Assembly (NCBI GenBank): GCA_005116955.1
Contig: SWDI01000003.1
Span: 1-64,000, forward strand
DNA from: Nitrospira sp.
Lineage (GTDB): Bacteria > Nitrospirota > Nitrospiria > Nitrospirales > Nitrospiraceae
Direction of reading: 5' to 3'
Length of the DNA: 64,000 nucleotides
The translations under genes were made by a program, and so were the position numbers. The notes beneath the pieces were generated by a model. It made no database searches, had not been told where the DNA came from, and worked only from the letters and a program-made list of their open reading frames with translations. Positions 1,476 to 18,392 of this stretch are shown here, piece by piece. Position 1 is the stretch's first letter; every line of letters begins with the position of its first letter.

Positions 1476-2333
1476 ATGGCTCGACCACTCCGCCTCGAAT
1501 TTCCCGGCGCGCTCTATCACGTCACCGCTCGTGGGAATACTCGGCAAGACATCTTTCTCGATGACGAGGACCGACAGCAGTTTCTCGCGGTGCTGACACG
1601 CGTGGTCTCCCGGTTTCATCTCCTGTTGCACGCCTATTGCCTGATGGACAATCACTTCCACTTGGTGGTGGAAACGCCGGAGGCCAATCTGTCTAAAGCC
1701 ATGCGCCAGCTCAACGGCGTCTATACCCAAGCCTTCAATCGTCGCCATCAGCGTGTTGGTCATGTCTTGCAAGGCCGCTTCAAGGCGATCATCGTAGACC
1801 GGGATAGCTATCTGCTGGAGCTCTGTCGGTATGTGGTGCTCAATCCGGTGCGCGCCAAACAGACCCGCAAAGCCGACACCTATCCGTGGTCCAGCTATCG
1901 TGCGACCGCTGGCCTCGCTCCCACACCCCCCTATCTGACAATCGACTGGCTGCTGTCTCAGTTTGGGCTGCAGCGTGCAGCCGCTCAACGGAAGTACCAG
2001 GCGTTTGTGGCGGAGGGAATCGGCCAGGGCTCACCGTGGGAGGAGGTGCGAGGCCAAGTGCTGCTTGGGAGTGAGCAGTTTGTCGAACGGTTCGCGCCTG
2101 GACTGCAAGACAAGCGGCTCTTGAAAGAGATTCCTCGACGACAGCGCTTTGCCGCCCGGCCGACGCTGAGCCAACTCTTTGGAGCCAAGACTCGGACTGA
2201 CCGGGTGCAGCGGAATGAGGCGATTCGTCGGGCGCATCTCGACCACGGCTATAGCCTCTCGGAGATCGGTCGTGCCGTGGGCTTGCACTATGCGACGATC
2301 AGCCGCATTGCGAATCCTCCAGATGCTGTTTGA
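1476..2333 (+). CDS. REP-associated (Y1/HUH) tyrosine transposase
   Basis: This 285-residue protein belongs to the Y1_Tnp/RAYT branch of IS200/IS605-type single-strand transposases. It opens with the typical MARPLRLEFPGALYHVTARGN. The HUH pair is in DNHFHLVVE near residue 61, and the likely catalytic tyrosine is in RYVVLNPVRA near residue 112. The C-terminal part carries an added helix-turn-helix-like segment (SLSEIGRAVGLHYATISRI). Such enzymes cut single-stranded DNA at REP-like hairpins. All motifs are intact, so it may be active. The gene is alone, with terminal repeats only clear on its left side. A partial second copy lies at 5081-5187. Confidence 0.9.
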   Translation: MARPLRLEFPGALYHVTARGNTRQDIFLDDEDRQQFLAVLTRVVSRFHLLLHAYCLMDNHFHLVVETPEANLSKAMRQLNGVYTQAFNRRHQRVGHVLQGRFKAIIVDRDSYLLELCRYVVLNPVRAKQTRKADTYPWSSYRATAGLAPTPPYLTIDWLLSQFGLQRAAAQRKYQAFVAEGIGQGSPWEEVRGQVLLGSEQFVERFAPGLQDKRLLKEIPRRQRFAARPTLSQLFGAKTRTDRVQRNEAIRRAHLDHGYSLSEIGRAVGLHYATISRIANPPDAV

Positions 2334-2626
2334 CGCACACGATAAGAGCTGTGTTCAACGTGCTCCATAAGACTTCCCCTCGGTTTTTATAAAAGATGTC
2401 CTCATTGTGGTCTTGTGAGTCTCTCGCCCCGTCCTTCGTAATGGTGGTCTGAAACACCATGCGCTGATGGTCGAGAAAGACCATCTTCTGATTCCGTGCA
2501 CTGCAATTGCCACCCGAATACCTCTCGCTAACTTTTCTCGCAATGCTTTGGTCATTTGGGTTTTGTTGCTACAGTAACGAAATTGCGAGATCCGGTGTAC
2601 CCTCTTTCTAGGATTCATCTACAGGC
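2334..2626. other. Intergenic region between transposase and cydA
   Basis: This 293-base stretch has short minus-strand open frames, but none shows a recognisable domain or ribosome-binding site. It presumably holds the right end of the transposase element and the cydA promoter. I could not identify either with confidence. No tRNA-like or riboswitch-like fold was seen. Confidence 0.4.
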
Positions 2627-3985
2627 ATGAACAGTGCGCTCCTCTACGATCGGCTTCAATTTGCCTTTACTGCCACCTTCCACTACCTCTTTCCGCAGTT
2701 AACGATGGGGCTGGCCTTGCTGCTGCTCTACTTGCGCAGCCGAGTATTGCTCACGGGCGATGAACATTATGAGGAAGTGGCGGACTTTTGGACGAAGATC
2801 TTCGCCCTCAATTTCGGCTTCGGCGTCGTCACTGGGATCCCGCTCGAATTTCAGTTCGGGACCAACTGGGCGCGATTTTCCAACTATGCGGGAGGCGTAA
2901 TCGGGCAAACACTGGCTATGGAAGGGGTCTTCGCCTTTTTCCTGGAATCTTCATTTCTTGGCCTCTTGCTGTTTCGGAAGCGATTCAGCCGCCGGGTGCA
3001 ATGGGTTGCCACTCTCATGCTCTTTCTCGGTACCTGGTTGTCGGGCTACTTCATCTTGGCCACGAATGCCTGGATGCAGCACCCCGTTGCCTATCAGGTA
3101 GCAGCTGATGGTCGGGTGTTCGTCACCAGCCTGAGCGGGCTGCTTACGAACCCGTGGCTCTTCTGGCAATTCGCGCACACCATGACAGCGACGGTTGTCA
3201 CGGCGTCCTGTGTAGTTGCTGCGATCGGTGCGTATTACTTGTTATGCGGTCAGTATCTGCCCCATGCAAAAACGTTTCTCCGCACCGGTGTCGTCTCCGC
3301 CGCGATCGCATCCGGACTGATGGTCTTCCCCACGGGGCACGGCAATGCTCACCAGGTGTTCCAATATCAACCGGTCAAGGGGGCAGCGTTTGAGGGGCTT
3401 TTTACGACGGAGCGAGAGGCCGGTCTCTATCTGGTGGGGCAACCCAATCTTGAAACGATGACCATCGACAACCCGATTGAGATTCCTGGAGCGCTCAGTT
3501 TTCTCGTGTACAAAGACCTCTATGCCAAAGTAAAGGGGCTTGATGCGTTTCCCCGTAACGAGTGGCCGGATAATCTTCCGCTCCTCTACTATGCGTACCA
3601 TGTTATGGCGGGTTTGGGGACGCTGTTCGCCCTCCTCTTTGGCGTGGCCCTTCTCGCTCTGTGGCGGGGCTGGTTGTTCAATATGAGATGGCTGCTGTGG
3701 TGGCTGATGTTGTGTGCCCCGTTCCCTTACATTGCCACCTCTGCTGGGTGGATGACGGCTGAGCTGGGACGGCAACCCTGGCTTGTCTATGGCTTATTGC
3801 GTACATCGGAAGGCACCTCGCCGCTCGTGCATTCGGGGAATGCCCTCTTTACCTTGATCGGGTTTTTGGGATTATATCTGCTGCTCGGTGTGCTGTTTGT
3901 CTTGCTTGTCAGCAAAATCATTCGACAGGGGCCTGCCTCGACTGACGTGCCGGTAATGTCCGCTCATCATGGAGCAGGCGCGTAA
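2627..3985 (+). CDS. cydA: Cytochrome bd ubiquinol oxidase subunit I
   Basis: CydA carries the haems and the quinol site of the bd-type terminal oxidase in the cytoplasmic membrane and reduces O2 to water. Key residues fall almost at E. coli numbering: His19 (FHYLFPQ), Glu99 and Glu107 (AMEG, FLESSF), His184 (QFAHTM), and Met376 followed by GRQPW. In the quinol loop Lys251 and Glu256 (KGAAFE) are kept. At 452 residues it has the short Q-loop form. It is followed directly by cydB with a one-base TAATG overlap. All functional residues are present, so this is a canonical oxidase rather than one of the divergent bd-like proteins. The high O2 affinity is inferred from the family. Confidence 0.96.
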   Translation: MNSALLYDRLQFAFTATFHYLFPQLTMGLALLLLYLRSRVLLTGDEHYEEVADFWTKIFALNFGFGVVTGIPLEFQFGTNWARFSNYAGGVIGQTLAMEGVFAFFLESSFLGLLLFRKRFSRRVQWVATLMLFLGTWLSGYFILATNAWMQHPVAYQVAADGRVFVTSLSGLLTNPWLFWQFAHTMTATVVTASCVVAAIGAYYLLCGQYLPHAKTFLRTGVVSAAIASGLMVFPTGHGNAHQVFQYQPVKGAAFEGLFTTEREAGLYLVGQPNLETMTIDNPIEIPGALSFLVYKDLYAKVKGLDAFPRNEWPDNLPLLYYAYHVMAGLGTLFALLFGVALLALWRGWLFNMRWLLWWLMLCAPFPYIATSAGWMTAELGRQPWLVYGLLRTSEGTSPLVHSGNALFTLIGFLGLYLLLGVLFVLLVSKIIRQGPASTDVPVMSAHHGAGA

Positions 3986-5022
3986 TGGAAATGGCGTGGT
4001 TTGTCATTGTTACCGTGATGTTGGCCATGTATGTGGTCTTGGATGGATTTGATTTCGGCGTCGGCATGGTCTATCCGTTCGTTGCTCATACTGAAGCGGA
4101 TCGGCAAACGGTGCGTGCCTCAATCGGTCCGGTGTGGAACGCGAATGAGGTGTGGTTGATCGCGGCCGGCGGCGTGCTGTTTTTCGCCTATCCCAAGGCC
4201 TACGCGGCTGGATTCAGCGGCTTCTATCTCGCGCTCATCCTTGTCTTGTGGCTGCTCATCTTTCGCGGTCTGGCGTTGGAACTGCGGGAACAGGTTGACC
4301 ATGTGTTGTGGCGGCAGGCATGGGATACAGCCTTTACGACCTCCAGTGTGCTCCTGGCAGTGGTCTTCGGCACGGCGCTGGGCAATTTAATTCGTGGGGT
4401 GCCTCTCAATCGAGACGGGTATTTCTTTGTTCCACTCTGGACTGACTTTCAGCCTGGAGCGGCGCCAGGGATTCTTGATTGGTTCACCATGCTGCTGGGA
4501 CTGAGCTGTACGGTGATCCTGGCGTTCCATGGAGCCAACTACCTTGTCATGAAAACCGAAGGCCTCCTGTATCAACGGACCGTCTCGGCCGCCCGGATCC
4601 TCGGGTGGATGTCGGCAGGGTATACAGTATTGACCGTGATTGCTGTGCCTCTGGTTCAGCCTAGCTTGGCTCTCAACTTTTCCAGGAATCCCGTGGTGTA
4701 CCTTGCACCCTTGATCGGGGTCATCGCTCTGGGGTACAGCTTGTATTTCAGGATCCGTGGGCGTGACACTTCTGCGTTTCTTGCTTCCAGTGTGTTTATC
4801 TTTCTGATGCTTGTCAGTGTGATGTTTGGCATGTATCCGAACATCTTGGTCTCAACGACTGACCAAGCACTCAGCCTTACTGTGTATAATGCAGCTACCG
4901 ATTCCTATGGGTTAACCGCTGGGATTAGCTGGTTTGTGGGTGGGTTCCTGCTCATTCTGACCTACCAGATCTATCTCTATTCCCAGTTTTGGGGAAAGAC
5001 TCGGGCGGACGACGCGCATTGA
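3985..5022 (+). CDS. cydB: Cytochrome bd ubiquinol oxidase subunit II
   Basis: This 345-residue polytopic membrane protein pairs with CydA in the bd oxidase. It starts with a hydrophobic helix and the hallmark VLDGFDFGVGM, followed by GPVWNANEVWLIAAGG, both strongly conserved in CydB. About eight further hydrophobic segments follow. The start codon overlaps the cydA stop, so the pair is one translational unit. No CydX-like small peptide was found behind it. The next 40 bases lead straight into transposon debris. Confidence 0.95.
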   Translation: MEMAWFVIVTVMLAMYVVLDGFDFGVGMVYPFVAHTEADRQTVRASIGPVWNANEVWLIAAGGVLFFAYPKAYAAGFSGFYLALILVLWLLIFRGLALELREQVDHVLWRQAWDTAFTTSSVLLAVVFGTALGNLIRGVPLNRDGYFFVPLWTDFQPGAAPGILDWFTMLLGLSCTVILAFHGANYLVMKTEGLLYQRTVSAARILGWMSAGYTVLTVIAVPLVQPSLALNFSRNPVVYLAPLIGVIALGYSLYFRIRGRDTSAFLASSVFIFLMLVSVMFGMYPNILVSTTDQALSLTVYNAATDSYGLTAGISWFVGGFLLILTYQIYLYSQFWGKTRADDAH

Positions 5023-5061
5023 TTGCGCGGCACGCTCCGTTCCGCTCACGTGTTATAGGAA

Positions 5062-5224
5062 TAGGGGCAGATCTTGCTCCTGGGAGTAAGCAGTTTGTCG
5101 AACGGCTGGCCACGGCTATAGTCTCTCAGAGATCGGCCGTGCCGTGGGCTTGCATTCTGCGACCATCAGCCGTCTTGCGAATCCCCGAGACAGTGGTTGA
5201 CATGCACAACCAGGTCTGACTCTC
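5062..5224 (+). pseudogene. Internally deleted relic of the Y1 transposase element
   Basis: Bases 5081-5104 match 2067-2090 of the intact transposase gene (coding GS-QFVER), and 5110-5187 match 2243-2321 (the terminal helix-turn-helix). About 150 bases between them are deleted and the two parts are in different frames. The relic has a variant left end (GGGGCAGATCTTG, 5064-5076) and a degenerate right end (ACCAGGTCTGACTC, 5209-5222), so it looks like a short non-autonomous derivative. It cannot encode a functional enzyme. Confidence 0.75.
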
Positions 5225-5309
5225 GATCTTTTTCTGCTTGTGTGTTCTCAGGAATGAGTTCGAACCACGAGAAAGGATCTGAGCGAAGGCTTGGGACTGG
5301 TCCACATGG

Positions 5310-5843
5310 TTATTCGCGATCCGGTCCTATTGAGCGAGGAGGCCCATCTCGATGTGCCCGAGGGTCGACTGGTAGATCTCCCCGATCATGGTGCATCTTG
5401 CGTTGATTCTTTTTGTCCTTGTGGCGGCTTCCCCGACGATGTTGACGATCGGCTTGAAGGTTCTGTCGATCATGCCGGACTTTCTGATCGTCGTGACGAA
5501 GGTGTCGCTGATCTGGATGAAGTTGTGCCTCATTGACTTGGTCCCGTGTTTTCTGCCGAAATTGTTGCCCGTCTCGACGAAGTACGTCTTTGTCCTGCTG
5601 GAGATCCTGACGGTCCGTCCGGGTATCCTGTATGTTGGGAGGGAGGTCTCGGTGCTCATCACCTAACTCACGAGGATATCCACGAAGGTCCGACTTATTT
5701 TTCGGTATCTCGCGCCACAGGTGTCGCGGCTCCGGGGCTCCCTTACTCAATTCTGTCTCGGGGAAGACGGCCTGGGCTGGGCTCGATCCGCTAGTGAGCA
5801 GGGCTATGGCTATACTCACCTGCATGGCTTTTGGGTACCTCAT
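5310..5843 (-). CDS. Secreted Asp/Arg/His-rich repeat protein of unknown function
   Basis: The 177-residue product has a signal peptide of about 25 residues (MRYPKAMQVSIAIALLTSG, then AQA). The mature part is extremely hydrophilic, with a loose periodicity of the type DRQDLQQDKDVLRRD, recurring as RHLRHDDQKVRHDRQNLQ. This pattern suggests a long charged alpha-helix or coiled coil rather than a globular enzyme. A GAGGGAG ribosome-binding site sits seven bases before the ATG, which supports this strand over the competing open frames. The final third becomes rich in His and Lys (HKDKKNQRKMHHDR), so metal or polyanion binding is possible but not shown. No domain was recognised. Confidence 0.6.
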   Translation of the reverse strand: MRYPKAMQVSIAIALLTSGSSPAQAVFPETELSKGAPEPRHLWREIPKNKSDLRGYPRELGDEHRDLPPNIQDTRTDRQDLQQDKDVLRRDGQQFRQKTRDQVNEAQLHPDQRHLRHDDQKVRHDRQNLQADRQHRRGSRHKDKKNQRKMHHDRGDLPVDPRAHRDGPPRSIGPDRE

Positions 5844-6025
5844 GGTTGCTCCCTCTCATTGGATCGTGACCTGCTTTTTGATGTGTTCCCGATCTTTGTA
5901 ACTATAACGATTGCCTTCTGGCTTGTCGTGGTCGGTGACAGAGTTAGATGGATTGGGCAGTAAGGCCAATCCAACGTGCAGGAATTTTTATCTCAGGCGT
6001 TTGGTTGCTGGTAGAGTGGTGGGAA

Positions 6026-6631
6026 TCAGCGCTTGGTCTGGGGAGGCATGTACTTGATCATCTCGTCGGCGAGTTCTTTTGCGATTTCTTTCAGACTCGG
6101 CTTAATGAACATATAGCTATTGGAACGTTCATGGCGCGCTTTCCAGACCGTGGTGCCGGTTGTGGCGTCGATCAGACGGAGGCTTAGCCCCACTCGCCCG
6201 ACATTATCTCCTTCCTTTCGTACATATTCCCAGGAGTTGATGCGTACTACCAAGAAGGAGTCTACGCTGAGCGCTTTCCCGAGCTTGATAGCGGAATCCT
6301 TATCAGATTGGCCGGTCATCTCCAAACGGGAGAAGTAAAACACGAGCGAGTCAAATGCTTCTTTCGAGGCCTGGAAGATATCGGTCACGTTTTCGGGCGA
6401 GACGACCCGTTCGATATTTCCCTGTCGATTCAGGGCGACGGCCAAGACTTCTTGAATGTCTTCCCGGGCGCTGTCGTATTGGCTGGCCATCGGCGGTAAT
6501 ACGGCGATGGCCTGCGGTCGAAATACCTTAGCACCTGGGCCTTCCCACACTTCCTGTAATCCGCCGCAGCCTCCGAGCAGCGCGAGGAGGGTCATCATGG
6601 ATATGATATGGACAGATGATCGAGTCAGCAT
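6026..6631 (-). CDS. Putative lipoprotein, CsgG/GNA1162-like
   Basis: This 201-residue protein has a hydrophobic leader ending in a lipobox (LALLGGCGG, Cys near residue 22), so it is probably anchored in the outer membrane. The body contains IAVLPPMASQYDSARED and later VDSFLVVRINSW and GLSLRLIDATTGTTVWKARHE. That layout (an IAVLPP strand, then 'attribute converted to work' strands near the end) is seen in CsgG-, LpoB- and GNA1162-like lipoproteins. It lies 15 bases downstream of the beta-barrel gene on the same strand, so the two probably form an operon. The exact family and role are uncertain. Confidence 0.65.
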   Translation of the reverse strand: MLTRSSVHIISMMTLLALLGGCGGLQEVWEGPGAKVFRPQAIAVLPPMASQYDSAREDIQEVLAVALNRQGNIERVVSPENVTDIFQASKEAFDSLVFYFSRLEMTGQSDKDSAIKLGKALSVDSFLVVRINSWEYVRKEGDNVGRVGLSLRLIDATTGTTVWKARHERSNSYMFIKPSLKEIAKELADEMIKYMPPQTKR

Positions 6632-6646
6632 AGGCCTAGTATACCA

Positions 6647-7792
6647 TTAGAATGTGACTGAAATAGAAGCGGAAACCAGGGCACCCTTTTCCCTGAAGTC
6701 ATACCCGCCTCCGGCATCGGCACGAAAGTTAAACCATCGGATGCCTAGCCCCGCCGTGGGGACAAAGGGGGTGGATGCATCCTGCATGTTCTTGAAGGTC
6801 CCGATCCTAAACGAGAGAAATTCCGACAAGATCGTCTGTTCGAGTCCTAAGCTTAGGAGCTGGCTTTTCACCCCCGGGACGAAGGTCTTGTTCGAGATTG
6901 CATCGACATCGGCCGACAACGTGAGAGAAGAGTATGGATTGATTGCGAAGCCGAATCGGACCTGTGGCTCCAGCTTTAACTCGCCTCCACCGGCAGCATC
7001 AAAGGTCGGCTTGTTGAGGTCTTTGGCGATGACGGCAAATCGAATCCAGGAAGATGGGCGATAGATGGCTCCGAGGTCTATGCCATAGGTCGTTGAGATA
7101 TTGGGTTTTCCAAAATGATCGGTTGTGCTGACACCGCTCCCACCAGTGAGGTCTGTAGAACCGTTGTACGCAGCACCCTGGATGACCTTTGCCGTGATGC
7201 CAATTGAGAAAGTTTTGTCTGAAAAGGCATAGGCATAGGAAAAGGCCAACTGCCTGGCTTCGAGACCGCGAAGAGCCATCTGGCCCGCCACGGTGATGGG
7301 AGTTCCCGGTCCACCTGGTTGCGAGGCTTGTACCGGGGTTGAGACGAACCCACCGCCGGTTGCCACATCAGACACGTTGAATCCGAACGCATGTTCGCCA
7401 AGATGTCCTTTAACGTACAGACCGGCCGAGCCGTTGACCGAGACCGTTGCGCCTGGCTGATTGATGCGATCAGCGATGCTCTGGCCTTTTGCCAAATTGC
7501 CCGGTGAGGTATCGCTGGTCGTGAAGTTCTCCAGATCATGAAGCGCATCGCCCAGGCCGCGGCGATCGATCGCCAATCCTCCTCCCTGGACGCGGACATC
7601 AACAGTCTGGGTCATGGCCAAGCCGGCGGGGTTCCAGTAGGTGGCGAGGGCATTGGTCGTCACGGCGACTCCAGCGCCTCCCATCCCCATCGCTCGAGGG
7701 CCCACGATCACAAATTCGGCTGTCGAGCCGTAGGAAGGCCAGGCTGAGGCCAGCAGCAGAATGGCCATTCGGAGCCATGGCGAGCAGCGCAT
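6647..7792 (-). CDS. Outer-membrane beta-barrel protein, TraF/UPF0164 (PorV-like) type
   Basis: A 381-residue protein with a signal peptide (MRCSPWLRMAILLLASAWPS). The mature start GPRAMGMGGAGVAVTTNALATYWNPAGLA is the signature of FadL/TraF-like barrel proteins with an N-terminal plug. The rest alternates short amphipathic strands and ends in an aromatic residue (ASISVTF), as barrel proteins do for BAM recognition. I chose the ATG at 7790-7792 because GAGGATCTGAC precedes it, whereas the upstream ATG at 7810 has no ribosome-binding site. The cargo, if it is a transporter, cannot be read from the sequence. The gene leads into the lipoprotein gene at 6026-6631. Confidence 0.75.
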   Translation of the reverse strand: MRCSPWLRMAILLLASAWPSYGSTAEFVIVGPRAMGMGGAGVAVTTNALATYWNPAGLAMTQTVDVRVQGGGLAIDRRGLGDALHDLENFTTSDTSPGNLAKGQSIADRINQPGATVSVNGSAGLYVKGHLGEHAFGFNVSDVATGGGFVSTPVQASQPGGPGTPITVAGQMALRGLEARQLAFSYAYAFSDKTFSIGITAKVIQGAAYNGSTDLTGGSGVSTTDHFGKPNISTTYGIDLGAIYRPSSWIRFAVIAKDLNKPTFDAAGGGELKLEPQVRFGFAINPYSSLTLSADVDAISNKTFVPGVKSQLLSLGLEQTILSEFLSFRIGTFKNMQDASTPFVPTAGLGIRWFNFRADAGGGYDFREKGALVSASISVTF

Positions 7793-9951: not shown

Positions 9952-11435
9952 GAGGATTTCTCTGGTCTGAGCTGGGGGAAGAGAACGACATCGCGGATGG
10001 ATGCTTGATCGGTGAACAACATGATCAGTCGGTCGATCCCGATCCCTTCTCCTGCGGTCGGTGGCATTCCGTATTCAAGGGCGCGAAGAAAGTCCTCATC
10101 GACGAGATGAGCCTCTTCATCGCCCGCCTCCCGCTGAGCCGCCTGGCCTTCAAACCGTTCACGTTGGTCCAATGGATCGTTCAACTCGGAAAAGGCATTC
10201 GCAATTTCTCGCCCGGCAATGTAGAGCTCGAATCGGTCTGTTAGGGACGGATCCGCATCCTTCCGTCTGGCGAGCGGAGAAATCTCGATTGGGTAATCGG
10301 TAATAAACGTAGGTTGTTGCAAATGAGGCTCGACGGTTTTCTCAAAAATCCCGTTGACGATCGTAAACAACGAGGCCTTCGGATCCACCGGGACGTTGAG
10401 CCGTTTGGCGGCCGCCAATGCCTGCTCTCGATCCTGGAGGACCGATGGGTCGAGGTGATTCACTTCTTGGATGGCTTGGTGGTACGACCACCGACGCCAC
10501 GGAGGCGTGAGGACGATCTCGTGCCCTTGGTAGGAAATAACCGTTTTGCCAAGAACTTGTTGGGCCAGGCTCGAAACCAGTTCTTCAGTGAGCGCGATTA
10601 GGTCGTGATAATCCGCGTACGAGACGTAGAACTCCAGCATCGTGAATTCAGGGTTGTGGATCGTCGAGATGCCTTCATTCCGGAAGTTGCGATTGATCTC
10701 GAATACGCGCGGAAACCCACCGACGATGAGGCGCTTCAAGTACAATTCCGGCGCGATACGCAAGTAGAGCTCAATGCCGAGCGCGTTGTGGTGTGTGACA
10801 AAGGGTTTGGCCGCCGCTCCTCCGGGAATGGGGTGCATCATGGGTGTTTCGACCTCAAGAAACCCTCGCTCGATGAGAAAGGTTCTGATGCCGGCGATGA
10901 TGCGGCTCCTGGTCGAAAAGATCTGATGGACCTGAGGATTGGCGATTAGATCGACATAGCGCTGCCGATACCGGGTTTCGACATCCGTTAAGCCGTGCCA
11001 CTTTTCCGGGAGCGGGCGAAGCGCTTTACTGAGAAAGGTCAGGTGATGGACCTCGACCGTGAACTCATTCGTCTTGGTGCGGAACAACGTTCCTGTGACG
11101 CCGATCCAGTCGCCGAGATCGAGCTGCTCGACGATGGTGTAGGCTTGTTTGGAGAGAAGATCTTTTTTGAGATACACCTGGAGGCGATCGGACCCGTCTT
11201 GCAGGACAGCAAATCCGGCCTTCCCGAAACGGCGTAGGGCGACGACTCGTCCCGCAAGTGTGCACGAGACCTTCTCCTGCTCTAACGTCTCCTTGGTCTT
11301 TTCACCATGCAGCATGAGTAATTGTCCGGCCCGATCCTTGACCTCGAAGCGACTGCCGTATGGAGCGACGCCGGCCTCTCGAAGGAGCTCGAGTTTCTTG
11401 ATCCGCTGTTGCCGCTGTTCGTTCAGTTCGTCCAT
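9948..11435 (-). CDS. lysS: Lysyl-tRNA synthetase, class II
   Basis: This 495-residue cytoplasmic enzyme charges tRNA-Lys. The N-terminal OB-fold anticodon-binding domain (about residues 55-165, with VALRRFGKAGFAVLQDG) is followed by the class II catalytic core. Motif 2 is seen in FRNEGISTIHNPEFTMLEFY and motif 3 in GEGIGIDRLIMLFTD near the C-terminus. The length is normal. The gene sits between prfB and lolC/E. A four-base overlap with lolC/E and a 20-base gap from prfB indicate one transcription unit. Confidence 0.97.
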   Translation of the reverse strand: MDELNEQRQQRIKKLELLREAGVAPYGSRFEVKDRAGQLLMLHGEKTKETLEQEKVSCTLAGRVVALRRFGKAGFAVLQDGSDRLQVYLKKDLLSKQAYTIVEQLDLGDWIGVTGTLFRTKTNEFTVEVHHLTFLSKALRPLPEKWHGLTDVETRYRQRYVDLIANPQVHQIFSTRSRIIAGIRTFLIERGFLEVETPMMHPIPGGAAAKPFVTHHNALGIELYLRIAPELYLKRLIVGGFPRVFEINRNFRNEGISTIHNPEFTMLEFYVSYADYHDLIALTEELVSSLAQQVLGKTVISYQGHEIVLTPPWRRWSYHQAIQEVNHLDPSVLQDREQALAAAKRLNVPVDPKASLFTIVNGIFEKTVEPHLQQPTFITDYPIEISPLARRKDADPSLTDRFELYIAGREIANAFSELNDPLDQRERFEGQAAQREAGDEEAHLVDEDFLRALEYGMPPTAGEGIGIDRLIMLFTDQASIRDVVLFPQLRPEKSS

Positions 11436-11455: not shown

Positions 11456-12602
11456 CTATAGGTCGTCGTCCGGTCCGCCGACCAGTGAGAGTTGATCACT
11501 TCCCTTCCCCAGTTTCTTCTTCAAAAAGGCCTCAATGAACCCATCGAGGTCCCCGTCCATGACGGCTGAGACGTTACTGAGTTGATGACCTGTCCGGTGG
11601 TCTTTGACCATTTGATAGGGCTGGAACACGTACGACCGAATTTGGCTGCCCCATGCAATGTCCTTCTTCTCGCCAACGATGGCGTTGAACTCCGCTTCCT
11701 TTTTCTTCTGTTCCAATTCGAAGAGGCGCGCCTTCAAGATTTTCATCGCACCATTTCGATTCTGCAGCTGGGAGCGTTCGTTCTGGCATTGCACGACGAT
11801 ACCGGACGGCAAGTGCGTAATCCGGATGGCGGTTTCCACTTTATTGACATTCTGTCCTCCGGCACCGCCTGCCCGAAAGGTATCGATCCGGAGGTCCTTG
11901 TCTTCAATCTCGACGTCGATATCCTCGCTCAGTTCAGGATAGACGAAGACGGACGCGAACGACGTATGCCGCCGCTTGTTGGAGTCAAACGGGGAAATGC
12001 GCACTAAGCGATGGACCCCAGCTTCCGCCTTCAGATATCCATAGGCATAGGGGCCCGTGATCGAGATCGTCACACTCTTGATACCCGCCTCGTCGCCGGG
12101 CAACAAGTCCAGTGTGTCCACCTTGAACTTCTTGTGTTCCGCCCACCGCACGTACATGCGAAGAAGCATCTGTGCCCAATCTTGGGATTCTGTACCGCCG
12201 GCACCGGGATGAATCGCGACGATGGCATTATTGGAGTCCAGCTCTCCTGACAGGAGAAGCTCGACACGCAGTGTGGCGAGGCGCGGTTCCAACTGATTCA
12301 GCTCACTCGCTAGCTCGGTCTCCAGAGCCGAGTCGCCGCTTTCGTGGGCCAGCTCAAGCAGCGCATCCACATCACCCATTTTGGTCTCGATATCGCGCCA
12401 TTGCTGCAGCTCTCGCTCGATCGTCGCCTTTTTCCGGCTCACCGCGGCGGCGGCACGGGCATCGTTCCAGAAGTGAGGCTGGCTCATCTGCGCTTCCAGC
12501 TCTTGCAAGTCGGCCGTCATATGAGCGAAGTCAAAGATGCCCCCGTAGTTCAGAGACTTGTTCAGCAAGAGAGCGAACACGAACTGCCACGTCTTCTATC
12601 AT
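11456..12602 (-). CDS. prfB: Peptide chain release factor 2, expressed by programmed +1 frameshift
   Basis: RF2 terminates translation at UGA and UAA. The long open frame carries the RF2 recognition tripeptide SPF ([11 protein letters not shown]) and the catalytic GGQ ([11 protein letters not shown]). The real start is not in that frame. An ATG at 12600-12602, eight bases after a perfect GGAGG, opens a 23-codon frame that ends ...LRGHL at an in-frame TGA (12531-12533), followed by C. A +1 slip at CTT joins it to the main frame (D-F-A-H-M...), giving about 381 residues. This is the classical autoregulatory arrangement, in which low RF2 raises frameshifting. The gene lies 21 bases behind lnt and 20 ahead of lysS. 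Confidence 0.95.
12530..12543 (-). promoter_or_regulatory. prfB programmed +1 frameshift site
   Basis: On the minus strand the bases read CGGGGGCATCTTTGAC. In zero frame this is CGG GGG CAT CTT TGA C: a G-rich internal Shine-Dalgarno-like stretch, the slippery CTT, the UGA stop and the poor +1 context C. Layout and spacing match the well-known E. coli prfB element, except that CAT replaces TAT. The stop codon is the substrate of RF2 itself. Confidence 0.93.
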
Positions 12603-12623
12603 GCCACGATCCTCCTTCTTCGG

Positions 12624-14240
12624 TCATGCCGGCGTGATAACCGTCATGACTGGTTCCTTCGTGCGGAAATAGCTGAACAGCCACAAAAGCGCGCAGATTA
12701 TAACACAGGCGTGGGCAAACACATCGCCGTAATAGCTGTAAAACGTGCGGGCTTGTCTGGTCGGGATCATCGCGTACGATGCCTGCTCGATGAAGAGAGG
12801 TGTCGTGTCGATGATCTGTCCGAACGGATCGATGAACCCGGAAATCCCGGTGTTCGCCGCTCGCGCGAAGGCCAAATGATTTTCCACTGCGCGAAAGACA
12901 ACCATGGCGAAGTGTTGGGCGGGGGCCGAGGACGGTCCAAACCAGCCGTCGTTCGTGATCGTCACCAGAAACTCCGCGCCGTTCGCTGCGAACTGACGGA
13001 CCAAATCCGGGAAGATGACCTCATAGCAGATCGCCACCCCAAACTTGACGGGTCGGGAACCGGACGAACGTTCCGTGTTCCATGATTTTGGGCTGAACGA
13101 AAGAGTCGTCGGTCCCGGCCCTGATTCGAAATCGCCGATGCCTTCGACGAGTTTGTCGAGGAAGAACAGGAGTGATGATTTGAGAGGGATGTATTCTCCA
13201 AACGGGACGAGATGGTGTTTGTCATAACGGCCAAGGACCATGCCGTCTGTCCCCAGCAGATACGCGCTGTTCAACAGGTAGGGGCGGCGATCAGGGTAAA
13301 ATCTCAAGGCCGGGCTGCCTAGGAGGATCGGTGCCTGCGCACGTTCCGCCCACGCGATCAGCTGCAACTGATACTCTTTCTCCCTCTCCAAAATAAACGG
13401 TGTCGCTGCCTCGGGCCACACGACCAAATCGGCACTGGTTCCCAGTTGGGCCGTGAGGCGGTCAAACGTCCGCATTGTTTCGTCGCGGACGGACGCATCC
13501 CACTTCACCGCTTGATCGATGTTCGGTTGAACGACACCGACGGTAATGAAGGTTTTCGGGTTTTGCCGATCTCTATCGCTTAGGACCGCCGAACTATAGA
13601 ACCACGATAGCAGCATGCAGGCTGCCGCGGTCGTGAGGAGTTCCCACGGGAGCTTGACCGGGTGACATCCACGGAAAAACGGCATGATCCACATGAACAG
13701 CTCGGCGAAGGCCACATTCACCAGGACAATGAGGAAGGAGATGCCGTACACACCTGTGTGGTCTGCCACCTGAATCAGGTCTAGTTCGCGATATTGCGAA
13801 TAGCCGAGGAGACACCATGGAAGGCCGGAGAGCAGGTAGGTACGGAACAACTCGAGTGCAACCCAGAAGCAGGGTGCAAAGAAAATCCCATAGCGTGGGA
13901 TGAGCTCACGCAACCAGACGACGGCAAGGCTATAGAGTCCGACGTAGAGCCCGAGATAGCTGGTCAGTAGCAGCAAGATTGCGTAACTCACGGGTTCGGG
14001 AACCTTGCCATAGGTCGTCATGGCGGTGACGACCCAGGCCATGATGCCGGTGAATCCGACGAGACCGCTTAGCCAGCCGATCCAAAAGGCTCGCCGTTTG
14101 GAACATTGGTCGAGTGCGAGATGGAGGGGAATCAGGACGATCCAGGCCAGTAATCCAAGATCAAACTTTGGAAAACAGAAAGGCAAGAGCAGTCCGCTCG
14201 CGCAGGCAAAGAGGATCTGACGCGAACGAGCGTGGTCCAT
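12624..14240 (-). CDS. lnt: Apolipoprotein N-acyltransferase
   Basis: This 538-residue inner-membrane protein has about six hydrophobic helices in the first 215 residues, followed by a periplasmic nitrilase-fold domain. The catalytic Glu-Lys-Cys set is recognisable in VVWPEAATPF, GRYDKHHLVPFGEY and GVAICYEVIFPD. It adds the third acyl chain to lipoproteins, the last maturation step before Lol export. Its position in one minus-strand run with lolC/E and lolD therefore makes functional sense. A final helix precedes the C-terminus. The length is close to that of the family (about 510). Confidence 0.95.
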   Translation of the reverse strand: MDHARSRQILFACASGLLLPFCFPKFDLGLLAWIVLIPLHLALDQCSKRRAFWIGWLSGLVGFTGIMAWVVTAMTTYGKVPEPVSYAILLLLTSYLGLYVGLYSLAVVWLRELIPRYGIFFAPCFWVALELFRTYLLSGLPWCLLGYSQYRELDLIQVADHTGVYGISFLIVLVNVAFAELFMWIMPFFRGCHPVKLPWELLTTAAACMLLSWFYSSAVLSDRDRQNPKTFITVGVVQPNIDQAVKWDASVRDETMRTFDRLTAQLGTSADLVVWPEAATPFILEREKEYQLQLIAWAERAQAPILLGSPALRFYPDRRPYLLNSAYLLGTDGMVLGRYDKHHLVPFGEYIPLKSSLLFFLDKLVEGIGDFESGPGPTTLSFSPKSWNTERSSGSRPVKFGVAICYEVIFPDLVRQFAANGAEFLVTITNDGWFGPSSAPAQHFAMVVFRAVENHLAFARAANTGISGFIDPFGQIIDTTPLFIEQASYAMIPTRQARTFYSYYGDVFAHACVIICALLWLFSYFRTKEPVMTVITPA

Positions 14241-14355
14241 CGTGCTGTACCTTATCCAAAAGATTCGATGACTTGCAAGGGAATGCTTGAACTATCAGCG
14301 ACTTGGAAAGGTCGCCACGTGCTTTTCCCCGATAGAATGAGGTATTGTAACTGAT

Positions 14356-14685
14356 ATGGAGCGCCGTCGGCATCGTCGAGCCCCTGTTCACGTGAAGAGC
14401 CTGCTTCAGGAGAACTCGCACGAGGTGGAGGGGGAGGCCGTCGATCTGTCACTCGGCGGCGCGCGGATTGAAAGCTCCCTTGTGGTTCAACCAGGAAGAC
14501 AGATCGCCGTCAAGCTGATTGTTCCAGGGGATGACACATCGATCCTGATCGAGCACGCTCAGGTGCAATGGGCGGTCGATCGAACGTTTGGGGTTCGGTT
14601 TGTTGATTTACCGGAGCATGAGTTGGATGAATTGGAACAGTTGATCGATGAAAGTATTGCGCTTGATGAAGGGAAAAGGACATGA
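14356..14685 (+). CDS. PilZ domain protein
   Basis: This 109-residue single-domain protein has the two PilZ c-di-GMP-binding signatures: RRRHRR at residues 3-8 (RxxxR) and DLSLGGARI near residue 35 (D/NxSxxG). It probably acts as a cytoplasmic c-di-GMP effector, but the partner is unknown. The gene is divergent from lnt. Its stop overlaps the start of the next small gene as ATGA, so the two products may act together. The window also encodes a second PilZ protein and a GGDEF/EAL enzyme. Confidence 0.85.
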   Translation: MERRRHRRAPVHVKSLLQENSHEVEGEAVDLSLGGARIESSLVVQPGRQIAVKLIVPGDDTSILIEHAQVQWAVDRTFGVRFVDLPEHELDELEQLIDESIALDEGKRT

Positions 14686-14897
14686 AATCCGTGAGGCCTG
14701 AGACAGAGACACAGCCCGATGACTCTCGGTTCTGGATCGGTGGCGAAGCGACCGTCGGGTCCCAAGCCCGCCGCCATATCCGTCGCCAAGCCGGGTCACC
14801 GACCTCTCTGCTCGGCGTCATCATCGGCCTCACATTCCTCGGCGGCCTTGCCCTCGGCAGCTCATTCGGTTTGCTCTGTCGGAGCAAGAACGAGTAG
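14682..14897 (+). CDS. Small single-span membrane protein
   Basis: The 71-codon frame begins at an ATG overlapping the PilZ stop. The first 40 residues are polar and Arg-rich near the membrane (RRHIRRQAG). One hydrophobic segment follows (LLGVIIGLTFLGGLALGSSF) and the protein ends in a short charged tail (CRSKNE). Coupling to the PilZ gene and the clear transmembrane segment argue that it is real, but no family was recognised. An alternate frame across the same bases is less plausible. Confidence 0.5.
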   Translation: MKSVRPETETQPDDSRFWIGGEATVGSQARRHIRRQAGSPTSLLGVIIGLTFLGGLALGSSFGLLCRSKNE

Positions 14898-14998
14898 CGC
14901 TTCTGCACTCACCCCGTGAGTCCCGCTTTAGTTCTTGACGCCACCATTTAGGATTCCACCATGGGGCTGGAGTTGTTTACTTAAGGGAGGGAAATCCA

Positions 14999-16693
14999 AT
15001 GGAGTTGCCTGGCTGTTCATTAGTCCAACGGGTTTTGTGTCTGGTTGTTGTATCACTCTTCGTCAGTATGGGAATCGCTCAAGCCGCTTCTCCCGATGAA
15101 GTGCGCCTGAAACGCAATGGGGGTCCGATTCAATCCCAGCCACAAGGCAAACCAGATCCTGACCTTCTTCCGCTTTGGGCCGCCTTGGTTGGCAAAGCAT
15201 CGGGGCCCGTATCAGTCACGTGGAGTCACCTCTGGGGCACTCCGAAAGCTGTATATGGCATGTTATCAAGTCCGATGGAGCCATCCGAAGCCTCGGCGCG
15301 GCAGTTTCTTTCCTCACAAGCTGCCCTTCTCAATCTTGAGCCTTCCTTACCTGGGTTTGTTTTGACGAGCGATAGGAAGACGTCGATGGGCCATGTCTAT
15401 GTGTTCAGCCAAAGGGCCGATGGTGTGCCAGTGTATGGGGGAGAATTGAAGATTCACTTTGACCGTGACGGTCACGTCGTCGGTCTGATTAACACCTCTG
15501 TGCCGAGCGCGAAACTGCCCGCGACGGTTCCCTCTCTGGAGCCTGAGCAGGCAATCCAGGCGGCCAAGGGACACATTCCTCCGGGCCTTAGCGATAAAGA
15601 AGAGGTAGCAGACGGGCCTGGACCGTCTGCCAAGTTGGTTATCTATGGAGACACTGGGACCCCGACACTCGCCTGGGAAGTCACGATCCATACGCATGGG
15701 CCGGCCTGGCAGGTGTTTATCCATGCACAGACAGGAAAAGCGTTGGCACCAGCACGAGATCTGAATCGCTATGTGACTGGGACGGGGCAGGTCTTTTTAG
15801 TGAACGCCATCGTGGCCGCGCGGGACAACAGTTTGCGTGATCAAAAGGATACGGCGTCAGCTGTCCCTCCAACTGTCTACCGTTCCGTGACGCTTATGGG
15901 ATTGGATGGGAGCGGCTTTCTGGATGGCATCTATGCCTCCAGCAGCAGCTCGAAACGGCGGGTGTCCTCGGCGAGTCAGACGTTCGTGTTTGATCGCAGT
16001 GAGAATGGGTTCAGCGAAACCATGGGCTATTATTATTTGGATTATGCGCAGCGCTATATTCAATCCCTTGGGTTTCCCACTGTCAATAACCGGCAGCAGG
16101 TCTTCAGTGTCGACCGCTCCAAGAAGGACAATTCCTTTTATCAACTGTCTACCAAAACCATTACCTACGGGACCGGCGGGGTCGATGATGCGGAAGATGC
16201 CGACGTCGTGTGGCATGAGTACGGACATTCCATTCTCGACGATCAAGTGCCGGGCTATGGGACGACGCTGGAAGCGGATTCGATCGGAGAGGGATTCGGT
16301 GACTATTGGGCCGGTACTCTTGGCGCGCAGCTCAGTGAAGGGTTTCAAGATGCCTGCGTGGCAGAGTGGGATGCCACCTCCTACTCGTCGACGACACCAC
16401 CCTGTCTTCGCCGGCTAGACGGGACTAAGCACTATCCCGAGTCAGTTGTTGGCGAAGTCCACGACGATGGAGAAATGTGGTCGGCCGCCCTGTGGCAGAT
16501 TCGGGCGGCAATTGGCGCGACGAAAGCTGATACCGTCGTTCTCCAACATCATTTCCTCCTAACTCCCGATACCTCGTTCAATCAAGCAGCGGATGCCTTA
16601 GTCACGGCAGCAACTGGTCTGGGCTACTCGGCGACAGATGTGAACGCAATTCGGACCATTCTCCAGAATCGTGGCTTCACAGTGACTCTGTAG
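14999..16693 (+). CDS. Secreted zinc metalloprotease (M36/M4-like)
   Basis: This 564-residue protein starts after a GGGAGG ribosome-binding site and has a signal peptide cleaved after about residue 29 (GIAQAASP). A propeptide with FTP/PepSY-like features spans roughly residues 40-250 (GHVYVFSQRADGVPVYGGELKIHFD). The catalytic part has HEYGHSILDD (HExxH, about residue 405) and the third zinc ligand in EADSIGEGFGDYW. This layout fits fungalysin (M36) or thermolysin-like (M4) enzymes activated by propeptide removal. The role is probably extracellular protein degradation. It stands alone, with transposon and DGR-like relics behind it. Confidence 0.82.
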   Translation: MELPGCSLVQRVLCLVVVSLFVSMGIAQAASPDEVRLKRNGGPIQSQPQGKPDPDLLPLWAALVGKASGPVSVTWSHLWGTPKAVYGMLSSPMEPSEASARQFLSSQAALLNLEPSLPGFVLTSDRKTSMGHVYVFSQRADGVPVYGGELKIHFDRDGHVVGLINTSVPSAKLPATVPSLEPEQAIQAAKGHIPPGLSDKEEVADGPGPSAKLVIYGDTGTPTLAWEVTIHTHGPAWQVFIHAQTGKALAPARDLNRYVTGTGQVFLVNAIVAARDNSLRDQKDTASAVPPTVYRSVTLMGLDGSGFLDGIYASSSSSKRRVSSASQTFVFDRSENGFSETMGYYYLDYAQRYIQSLGFPTVNNRQQVFSVDRSKKDNSFYQLSTKTITYGTGGVDDAEDADVVWHEYGHSILDDQVPGYGTTLEADSIGEGFGDYWAGTLGAQLSEGFQDACVAEWDATSYSSTTPPCLRRLDGTKHYPESVVGEVHDDGEMWSAALWQIRAAIGATKADTVVLQHHFLLTPDTSFNQAADALVTAATGLGYSATDVNAIRTILQNRGFTVTL

Positions 16694-16735
16694 ATTCCGA
16701 TCGCCAGCTTTCATCTACGGATAGGAGCGGCGGTT

Positions 16736-16828
16736 TCAAGTTCCAAGTGCAACGGGTGAATGATGGCGCAATTGCGCATAGACTTCCAGGGGCGTCGCAA
16801 AGTCGAGACATTTTCGTGGGCGCGTGTC
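16736..16828 (-). pseudogene. IS30-family transposase, C-terminal relic
   Basis: The minus strand reads TRPRKCLDFATPLEVYAQL and ends soon after with a TGA at 16736-16738. N-RPRK-L-TP-EV is the hallmark C-terminus of IS30-family DDE transposases. The frame is closed by a stop only a few codons further upstream, and nothing else of the transposase is present. It is too short for an active gene. It marks a former insertion next to the FGE/Avd relics. Confidence 0.7.
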
Positions 16829-16914: not shown

Positions 16915-17258
16915 TACCCGATAAGACGCTGGCGAATTTTGGGCACAGCGGCTTTACCGAATATGGTGTGCTAACTACTGATGTGGGGTCGTTTGAGAGA
17001 GGGAAAAGTCCCTACGGCGTGTATGACATGGCCGGTAATGTCTGGGAGTGGGTAGCGGACTGGTACGACGAGAACTATTACAGCAAGAGCCCGGCACGTA
17101 ATCCCAAAGGCCCTACGAGCGGCGAGTATAGGGTGCTCCGCGGTGGCTCCTTCGTCGATATTACGGACTTTATACGCTCTGCGTACCGATTATGGTACGC
17201 ACCCACGTTCCGGGGCGTCGGTATCGGGTTCCGTTGTGCTCAGGACGTTCCGAAGTAA
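16915..17258 (+). pseudogene. FGE-sulfatase-fold C-terminal fragment, likely DGR variable protein relic
   Basis: The open frame covers the C-terminal third of a formylglycine-generating-enzyme-fold (C-type lectin-like) protein. Landmarks are SPYGVYDMAGNVWEWVADWY, then YRVLRGGSF, RSAYR and IGFRCAQD before the stop. The frame is readable from about 16887, but similarity starts near LANFG at about 16929. The start region and first two thirds are missing. In many DGRs this domain is the diversified target, with its variable region between RGGS and GFR. Here most codons in that interval end in C or T (GTC, GAT, ATT, GAC, TTT, TAC, TTC, GGC, GTC, GGT), the pattern expected from adenine-templated mutagenesis of AAY codons. 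An Avd-like relic follows 88 bases downstream. Confidence 0.7.
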
Positions 17259-17346
17259 CCTTTTCGCTTTGACCCTGTTTTCTTTTCTCCGGATCTTGGC
17301 TCTTGATTTCTTGCCGTGAAGCATCGTATCCGAGTCGGGGGTCGCC

Positions 17347-17496
17347 ATGACCGACGAAGGGACCAGCAGCCTTCCCACCGCCGTCACGAAGACCTACGAT
17401 GTGTTGCTCTGGCTCATCAACCACGTGGGGAAGTTTCCACGCTCGCATCCGTTTGTGCATGCTGACGGAGTAGCCCATTCCCCCCTTTACCTGTGA
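17347..17496 (+). pseudogene. Avd-like (DGR accessory four-helix-bundle) N-terminal fragment
   Basis: A 49-codon frame contains KTYDVLLWLINHVGKFPRSH, a close match to the first helix and turn of the bacterial Avd family (K-TYD-x2-LWL-x3-x-KFPRSH-F). In full-length proteins about 70-90 further residues follow. Here similarity stops after FVHADGV and a TGA follows within nine codons, so the gene is truncated. Avd binds the DGR reverse transcriptase and is needed for mutagenic homing. No reverse transcriptase gene or template repeat was found in the window. A minus-strand frame over the same bases has no domain and is rejected. Confidence 0.7.
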
Positions 17497-17612
17497 CCCT
17501 CACGCCCAAATCAAACGGTTCGAAATCGGCGGCTTGCCGCTGTTGTGATGCCTATGGTACCGTGAAAATCACGTCTCTGTAGTGCAATGAAATGATGAAA
17601 CCTGGAGTGACT

Positions 17613-18392
17613 ATGCGATCGGTTTTGAGTGTGGGAGCCTGCGTGCTGTTTGGTCTAGTGGCATGGTCTGGGGTGTGCGGGGCGGAAGAGCCTCTCACGA
17701 TGACACAGTCTGACGAGTATTTCCCTGATACGATCGGAAGCCGCTGGACCTATCGTGGCCACATCAACGAAGGGCCGCTCCAGACGATCGAACTGAAGTT
17801 TTTCACGAATGTGTCGACGGTCACCGAGACGAAGACCATCAAAGGCGTCACCGTGATGGTGTTCCATGACACGAATCCTGGGAATCATGGCCCGTCGGAC
17901 AGTTACTATCGTCGGGACCAGGTTGGCATCGTCTATTACGGATCGGAGCCAGGGACCCCACTAGAAAAACAGATCACTCCCTACCAGATATTTCGGTTTC
18001 CCTTAATCGTACCGTCTTCATTTCAGCAGTTTGATCGTACGGGCATCGACTTCGGGACCGATATGGATCGAGACGGAACAGATGAAAAGGTTGATACGCA
18101 GGGATGGAGTAAGGTGATGGGCCGCGAAACCGTCACGGTTCCGGCAGGGACCTTTCCGGATGCGGTGAAGGTGGAAGCGCGGATGAATATGAAGATTCAT
18201 TTGTCGGGCAGCCATCGGACCGTTTCCGGTATCGATGTGATGACGGCCTGGTTTGCCAAAGGGATCGGATTGGTGAAGTATGTGGAGCGTCAAGAATTAT
18301 CTGCGGTCAAGGAGGACCGAGGCGTCGTGACGGAAATCACGGAAGAACTTGAAGAACACGACATCAAGCCTCTCAAGGCCTCACTGAATTGA
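17613..18392 (+). CDS. Secreted protein of unknown function
   Basis: Of two possible starts I prefer the ATG at 17613, which has GGAG five bases upstream. The ATG at 17592 would only add MMKPGVT. The 259-residue product has a signal peptide (MRSVLSVGACVLFGLVAWSG, cleaved near GVCGAEE). The mature part begins with YFPDTIGSRWTYRG and is rich in beta-strand. It ends with a segment of the type 'WFAKGIGLVKYVE', common in bacterial secreted DUF3108-like proteins that report loading of a ligand or sugar. No catalytic motif is visible. It converges on putA and overlaps its 3' end by 12 bases. Confidence 0.7.
   Translation: MRSVLSVGACVLFGLVAWSGVCGAEEPLTMTQSDEYFPDTIGSRWTYRGHINEGPLQTIELKFFTNVSTVTETKTIKGVTVMVFHDTNPGNHGPSDSYYRRDQVGIVYYGSEPGTPLEKQITPYQIFRFPLIVPSSFQQFDRTGIDFGTDMDRDGTDEKVDTQGWSKVMGRETVTVPAGTFPDAVKVEARMNMKIHLSGSHRTVSGIDVMTAWFAKGIGLVKYVERQELSAVKEDRGVVTEITEELEEHDIKPLKASLN

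Follow-up and report, generated by a model that had tools for sequence, protein, structure and literature searches.

Remains of a diversity-generating retroelement, very probably decayed in place, in a Nitrospira genome

The window, i.e., the whole stretch of DNA that was analysed, corresponds to the first 64000 bases of contig C3 in a Nitrospira genome (G000; 3.65 Mb in 8 contigs, 99.84% complete). A preliminary description had taken a gene tail and the truncated avd gene behind it for the relic of a diversity-generating retroelement (DGR). In these systems an enzyme, a reverse transcriptase (RT), makes an error-prone copy of a template repeat (TR), the errors falling at adenines, and this copy replaces the end of a target gene. 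The features at the locus are as follows.

16729..16824, minus strand: 96-bp repeat, 100% identical to C3:266098-266193 (L172:11901-11996)
16931..17258, plus strand: C-terminal fragment of a DGR target with the FGE-sulfatase fold (PF03781), with a 75% DNA match to genome G058 from 16931
17139..17237, plus strand: core of the variable region (VR), RGGSFVDITDFIRSAYRLWYAPTFRGVGIGFRC, where mismatches to the TRs of relatives are concentrated at template adenines
17259..17346, plus strand: target-avd spacer, 88 bp, kept in the intact locus of genome G016
17347..17461, plus strand: avd, first ~38 codons (NF033474 match, DNA homology to genome G054), the frame staying open to 17496 in unrelated sequence
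17462..17527, no strand: 66 unmatched bases at the deletion scar, in place of 1860 bp in G054
17528..18392, plus strand: right flank resumes with a match to G054, including the gene of a 266-aa protein (17592-18392)

The frame of the target fragment is open to a stop codon at 17256-17258 and matches PF03781 well over the curated cut-off (E 1.2e-25, 91.1 bits against 23.3), bearing out the proposed FGE-fold tail. The match covers profile positions 161-254 of 255, i.e., the C-terminal third only; the N-terminal part of the target and the first ~160 of 255 FGE positions are missing, in agreement with the earlier statement that the first two thirds had been lost. The earliest start codon in register, GTG at 16968, lies within the FGE domain, and the effector domain which accompanies a variable FGE domain in putative antigen sensors is absent from the window.

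Beginning with an ATG at 17347, 88 bases past the target stop, the avd stub runs for 49 codons and ends at 17496. It scores 20.2 bits against the NCBIfam Avd model NF033474 (curated cut-off 80; E 5.7e-4), with residues 13-42 on profile positions 4-33 of 104, and is thus a homologous start of avd rather than an Avd protein in the sense of NF033474 or bAvd (PF22296). A Pfam search with the stub gave no match, its PHROGs match has an E of 0.33, and the profile search of its own genome for Avd missed it. Despite the weak HMM score, the homology to avd is secure from direct comparison: measured against the complete avd of G054, the stub is 77% identical in protein (43 residues) and 89% identical in DNA (116 bases). 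The 49-codon frame had been read as the start of Avd; this holds for ~38 codons, whereas the last ~11 are unrelated, DNA homology ending at about 17461, where avd is indeed cut short. Close matches to the 49 residues were found in G054, G017, G016, G052, G058 and G006 (66-79% identity). When 79 Nitrospira genomes were searched with the Avd model, 40 had a match at E <= 0.001 and 7 one above the cut-off; we take many of the weaker matches to be distant Avd relatives.

Intact counterparts occur within the genus. In both G016 and G058 an FGE-domain target is followed by avd, the RT and a template repeat that includes the reading RGGSWNNEPDNVRSANRNRN; the enzymes carry YADD or YVDD together with IGNQTSQ, and Pfam confirmed RVT_1 and bAvd on the intact loci. 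The G016 target combines trypsin and FGE domains, while a TIR_2-FGE fusion is the target in G058 and in Nitrospira sp. RSF1 (taken to be G017). Such TIR-FGE or trypsin-FGE targets of intact or less decayed relatives (L189, L094, L090) resemble putative antigen sensors elsewhere in bacteria. Enzymes at least 45% identical to the G016 RT over a substantial stretch are present in 10 of the 79 genomes (G012, G013, G016, G017, G020, G036, G054, G058, G060 and G066), those of G020 and G060 being partial and that of G036 interrupted by stops; in G037 there is a short remnant with stops (71 residues at 47% identity). Target, spacer and avd of the window align as a block to G016 (82% over 425 bases), with 9 mismatches in 108 bases of spacer alignment over 17235-17346.

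The gene order at the orthologous place in G054 shows what the window lacks. There contig C10, which starts just before avd and leaves the target outside, carries avd, the RT, the TR and then the right-hand genes of the window; the 266-aa protein gene adjoins the DGR site in relatives. Window 17346-17461 matches G054 95-210 (89%) and window 17528-22761 matches G054 2071-7274 (79%), and from these two collinear alignments it follows that 1860 bp in G054, comprising the remainder of avd, the RT, the TR and the stretch after it, stand against the 66 unmatched bases. The suggested comparison with relatives places the loss of RT and TR, which had been noted as missing, between defined ends.

A second lineage has decayed differently. 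At the same place G017/RSF1 has a complete 633-residue TIR-FGE target and an avd cut at about codon 44, followed by a VapBC-type pair (PIN toxin confirmed by Pfam, partner judged by eye) where RT and TR would be, while its right flank is that of the window at 90% identity. These ends differ from those of the window, so the loss has distinct ends in two lineages, and with the G054 cassette this supports the earlier proposal that the cassette decayed here. With the right-hand 266-aa gene as query, 80 orthologous named loci were recovered, some with little upstream sequence. An upstream match to the FGE target or VapBC of RSF1 was present in 4 (RSF1, KAN-bin2, ACE_NIT12 and L199) and to avd in 1 (RSF1); no RT was found upstream in these 80, again given the short upstream sequence of some. 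The RSF1 island is located between 1793 and 5936 of locus L189, and its flanks are nearly contiguous in CG24B (L188), which may reflect a gain in some lineages or a loss in many.

The variable region retains the adenine signature. Over a 99-base template core, mismatches were split into those at template adenines and those at other bases. Against the TRs of relatives, the window VR differs at 23/30 adenines and 13/69 other bases (G058), 23/30 and 14/69 (G016) and 22/29 and 15/70 (G054), i.e., mainly at adenines; beside an intact enzyme, the G016 target differs from its own TR at 11/30 and 0/69. As a further yardstick, the RSF1 target differs from the G016 template at 12/30 and 1/69. Against G016, no such bias is seen in the flanks (adenines 5/29 and others 10/65 before the VR, 3/16 and 6/92 in the spacer, 3/22 and 10/90 in the avd stub). 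Among four spacer comparisons, however, one is adenine-biased (G052, 14/25 against 16/85), and that with G058 is weakly so (6/15 against 12/90). The Fisher test is by itself unspecific because template adenines mark variable residues, and several FGE paralogs with no other sign of a DGR also reach p 0.001-0.01 against the TRs. It is therefore the low non-adenine mismatch (13-15 of 69-70 in the window, against 22-41 of 69-70 in those paralogs) and the flank control that carry the argument. The 14/69 non-adenine mismatches to the G016 template are close to the divergence before the VR (15/94), as would be expected if the VR froze long ago. A candidate IMH-like stretch at the 3' end, TATCGGGTTCCGTTGTGC, is identical in the VR and the G058 TR. 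The predominance of codons ending in C or T noted earlier was confirmed by eye: they make up 16 of the 25 codons that separate RGGS from GFR.

From the gene order with its intact counterparts, the synteny, the deletion ends and this adenine signature, we conclude with high confidence that 16931-17461 contains the remains of a Nitrospira DGR which decayed in place. The preliminary description had staked this reading on the placing of the stub among Avd proteins and on a template or an RT being found; the stub is weak by HMM and clear by direct comparison, and relatives carry both enzyme and template.

It had also left room for a target still served in trans, and one alternative of very low probability is a remote target cassette still diversified from a DGR at another site in the genome; the avd stub would then have come along when a duplication brought the target here. 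Within the searches made, the genome has no DGR enzyme. A PF00078 search returned one RT, a group II intron protein (TIGR04416, cut-off 300 bits, score 406; on this model the G016 and G054 DGR enzymes reach 146-147), and the G016 RT as query found only this protein, at 27% identity. As the sole RT found is of the group II intron type, service in trans is unsupported, and with no DGR-type RT found in this 99.84%-complete genome and no TR at the locus, the relic does not count as a working DGR. Trans service is indicated in the genus, where the remote FGE target G054:C5:230715-231052 (L114, L170) shows 15/29 adenine and 1/70 other mismatches to the C10 template, a sign of such service by an intact Nitrospira DGR, and the genome of the window does contain an orphan TR. 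The latter, on contig C2, differs from the window VR at 24/30 adenines and 21/69 other bases, a worse fit than the 13-15 of 69-70 with the TRs of relatives. Moreover, the window target is without its front, and the relic occupies the place of the core cassette in G054, not that of a remote copy.

This orphan TR is part of a second dead DGR. With the template region of G054 as query, a 79% match was obtained at C2:917213-917318, where the DNA reads as 39 residues and was judged a template from its AAC/AAT codons; directly before it lies a scrap of an RT C-terminus (16 of 23 residues shared with the G020 enzyme, E 8.7e-6 in a 19-kb target), adjoined by an IS3 transposase (353 bits). About 280 bp downstream of the template there is a PIN toxin gene (PF13470), whose Phd-like partner falls below its cut-offs. 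The orphan TR and RT scrap at G000:C2:917213-917343 (L187, L057) make up this second dead DGR. The suggested search for a template in the window's own genome did find a TR-like copy here, but one that fits another target better. That target, a complete FGE gene at C5:236088-236876 (L040), is separated from the C2 template by 16/30 adenine and 4/69 other mismatches and is probably its frozen target: a whole target and its template survive without an enzyme having been found. Another FGE protein, at C1:255521, differs from the C2 template at 22/30 and 18/69. The stretch after the C2 template (L187:9025-9226) is 89% identical to the stretch after the avd stub of G033 (L101:1232-1429), which suggests a loss in G033 limited to the end of avd, the RT and the TR.

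Equally improbable is that the FGE tail and avd stub have been kept for a function, for instance by encoding a small protein that is expressed or by donating sequence to other FGE genes through recombination. Such retention would agree with the 27-32 codons before the VR, in which differences from relatives are mostly silent (dN/dS 0.05-0.14 in three scorable comparisons, silent sites being saturated in a fourth) and which show no visible decay at the protein level since the loss, and with the avd stubs of 11 of the 79 genomes, many of which end near the same codons. The model search, however, misses stubs of less than ~40 codons and so itself sets the lower edge of these ends; the fragment is without most of its FGE domain; and the tails behind truncated avds vary by locus, for which reason a conserved mini-protein was considered and dropped. 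That an ordinary FGE-family gene fragment has a chance Avd-like frame behind it is highly improbable and contradicted by the synteny: FGE domains are common in the genome (19 matches) and the Avd profile match alone is weak, but fragment, spacer and stub form one block with the intact G016 locus and the right flank is common to the complete avd-RT-TR of G054.

The left end of the relic lies at a point of rearrangement. Window 11500-14906 has its counterparts on other contigs in relatives (96% to G017:C6), unlike the relic and its right flank, which match G017:C12; for the protease-like gene at 14999-16693, none of the six relatives searched gave a DNA match; and the 96-bp repeat sits between this gene and the FGE fragment. 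It is from these three that the relic is placed at a rearrangement point. The protease-like gene resembles metalloproteases, with weak NCBIfam matches to M36/M4. The six relatives searched have copies of ~100 bp, the best one per genome being 90-96% identical. The minus strand of the window copy reads RPRKCLDFATPLEVYAQLRHHSPVALGT-stop and may encode the end of an IS30-type transposase; an NCBIfam search with 28 residues of the repeat gave no match. The identical repeat lies near two FGE fragments of the genome (window 16729-16824 and L172:11901-11996) and is possibly a transposase end. The left scar may be IS-related.

The proposed history is as follows. The ancestor would have had a target consisting of an effector-like domain, TIR as in two relatives or trypsin-like as in a third, and a C-terminal FGE-fold domain, followed by avd, the DGR RT and the template repeat, and its FGE surface would have varied between cells through adenine-mutated copies of the template. 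On the left, a rearrangement or deletion with a multicopy repeat at the scar may have taken the target front and the first two thirds of the FGE domain; on the right, a deletion would have taken the remainder of avd, the enzyme and the template. This would leave a frozen target tail lacking a normal start, together with an avd stub, both most likely without function. The sensor role of the target and the order of the left and right losses belong to what we infer.

Truncated avd genes recur in the genus. Fourteen truncated avds in 11 of the 79 genomes were inspected (one each in G000, G006, G009, G015, G017, G033, G035, G052 and G062, three in G020 and two in G055), other short weak matches being outside this set. 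All 14 lack the C-terminal part, with no avd match in any frame past residue 72 of the 119 in G016 avd, and one of the G020 stubs is also frameshifted. Those of G009, G015 and G035 have common downstream sequence and were therefore counted as one event. To the right, G015 and G013 are collinear (93% over 7163 bp, starting at 10844 and 9859, respectively), with 741 bp in G015 that include a PemK toxin gene standing opposite 1635 bp in G013 with the avd remainder, RT and TR. A DGR-type enzyme is absent from 9 of the 11 stub genomes and lies elsewhere in G017 and G020, an absence which is provisional because most stub genomes are drafts. A hotspot with site specificity around avd codons 42-49 was considered but is not claimed: stubs under ~40 codons escape the model search, the window stub itself having been missed, so that the apparent lower bound, close to the end of many stubs, may reflect the limit of detection.

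Toxin genes or their partners lie near several of these stubs: by Pfam, PIN (G017, G020), PemK (G015, G033), ParE (G015), HigB (G052), nucleotidyltransferase and HEPN (G006), and DUF433 and DUF5615 (G055). By eye, no toxin gene was seen near the stubs of G000:C3, G055:C1, G062 and one of G020. Such pairs also adjoin intact loci (Phd-ParE at G013, PIN at G058); by eye, none was seen within 2.6 kb at the intact loci of G016, G054, G012, G058:C47 and G066. From 312 PIN and PemK genes in 68.2 Mb of 17 genomes (sizes rounded), ~0.24 of 23 DGR or relic loci, some of which stop at contig ends, would be expected to have one within 2 kb downstream; 6 do (G017:C12, G020:C170, G020:C155, the G015 lineage, G033 and, from a separate Pfam search, G058:C135). 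A Poisson estimate over 22 loci, with a 2-kb window chosen post hoc and the genome-wide density as baseline, puts six at 2e-7 and five at 5e-6. Toxin-antitoxin genes of different families are commoner beside DGRs and relics than the density of the two toxins predicts (L103, L100, L101, L098, L099, L104, L108, L089, L094, L187), and clustering in defence islands is the plain explanation.

A replacement of the RT by toxin-antitoxin pairs was also considered and is weakened, at the orthologous locus of the window, by VapBC occupying this position in KAN-bin2 (L206) and L199, with no avd detected there, and by a different PIN toxin in ACE_NIT12, as well as by the pairs beside the intact DGRs of G013 and G058; at the G013/G015 locus it may still apply. 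A rather doubtful further idea is that hypervariable sensor loci of Nitrospira have repeatedly been frozen by excision of the DGR core, hard-to-lose toxin-antitoxin pairs at the border limiting the deletion ends. If true, it would explain why avd stubs are often beside PIN, PemK, HigB, HEPN or similar toxin genes, and such pairs would act as a brake on deletion inside defence islands.

Precedents in Treponema, cyanobacteria and Thiohalocapsa place the relic in a class already known; a text search of PMC8867640 gave nothing of relevance. According to the report on Treponema denticola (PMC4891356), some isolates have target genes without RT or TR, believed to be remnants of lost core DGRs. The likeness is in target genes left after the loss of the core; unlike there, the deletion ends in the window are placed against avd-RT-TR at the orthologous locus of a relative, and a broken target remains together with an avd stub. 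In Thiohalocapsa PB-PSB1, transposons and MITE-like repeats have degraded DGR loci (PMC10907252). Shared with these are targets of the FGE/CLec type that belong to putative conflict systems containing TIR or peptidase parts, the loss of RT or TR at some loci and the scars of mobile elements, but some targets there are thought to be diversified in trans, whereas no DGR enzyme was found in the genome of the window. The cyanobacterial variable-protein paralog all3226 (PMC7517822) has remnant TR-VR homology and no RT nearby; it too is a target without diversification machinery, though a dispersed paralog, and not the core locus itself as in the window. Also comparable are the intact Nitrospira DGRs, which share the spacer and avd start (G016, G058), the avd start and right flank (G054) and the type of TR, but in which, unlike the relic, avd, RT and TR are kept.

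The evidence thus supports well a fossil of a known system, not a new one, whose loss is unusually well documented. Among the matches listed from open-licence PMC full texts, no title or visible abstract reports Nitrospira DGRs or DGR relics. DGRs have mostly been described where they are apparently active, and their ending is less documented. In this case two DGRs have died within one genome, and other members of the genus keep intact counterparts; an orphan template is left, along with at least one whole target that still matches it. This provides base-level examples of the loss of a hypermutation system and the fixation of its targets in an environmentally important genus of nitrifiers.
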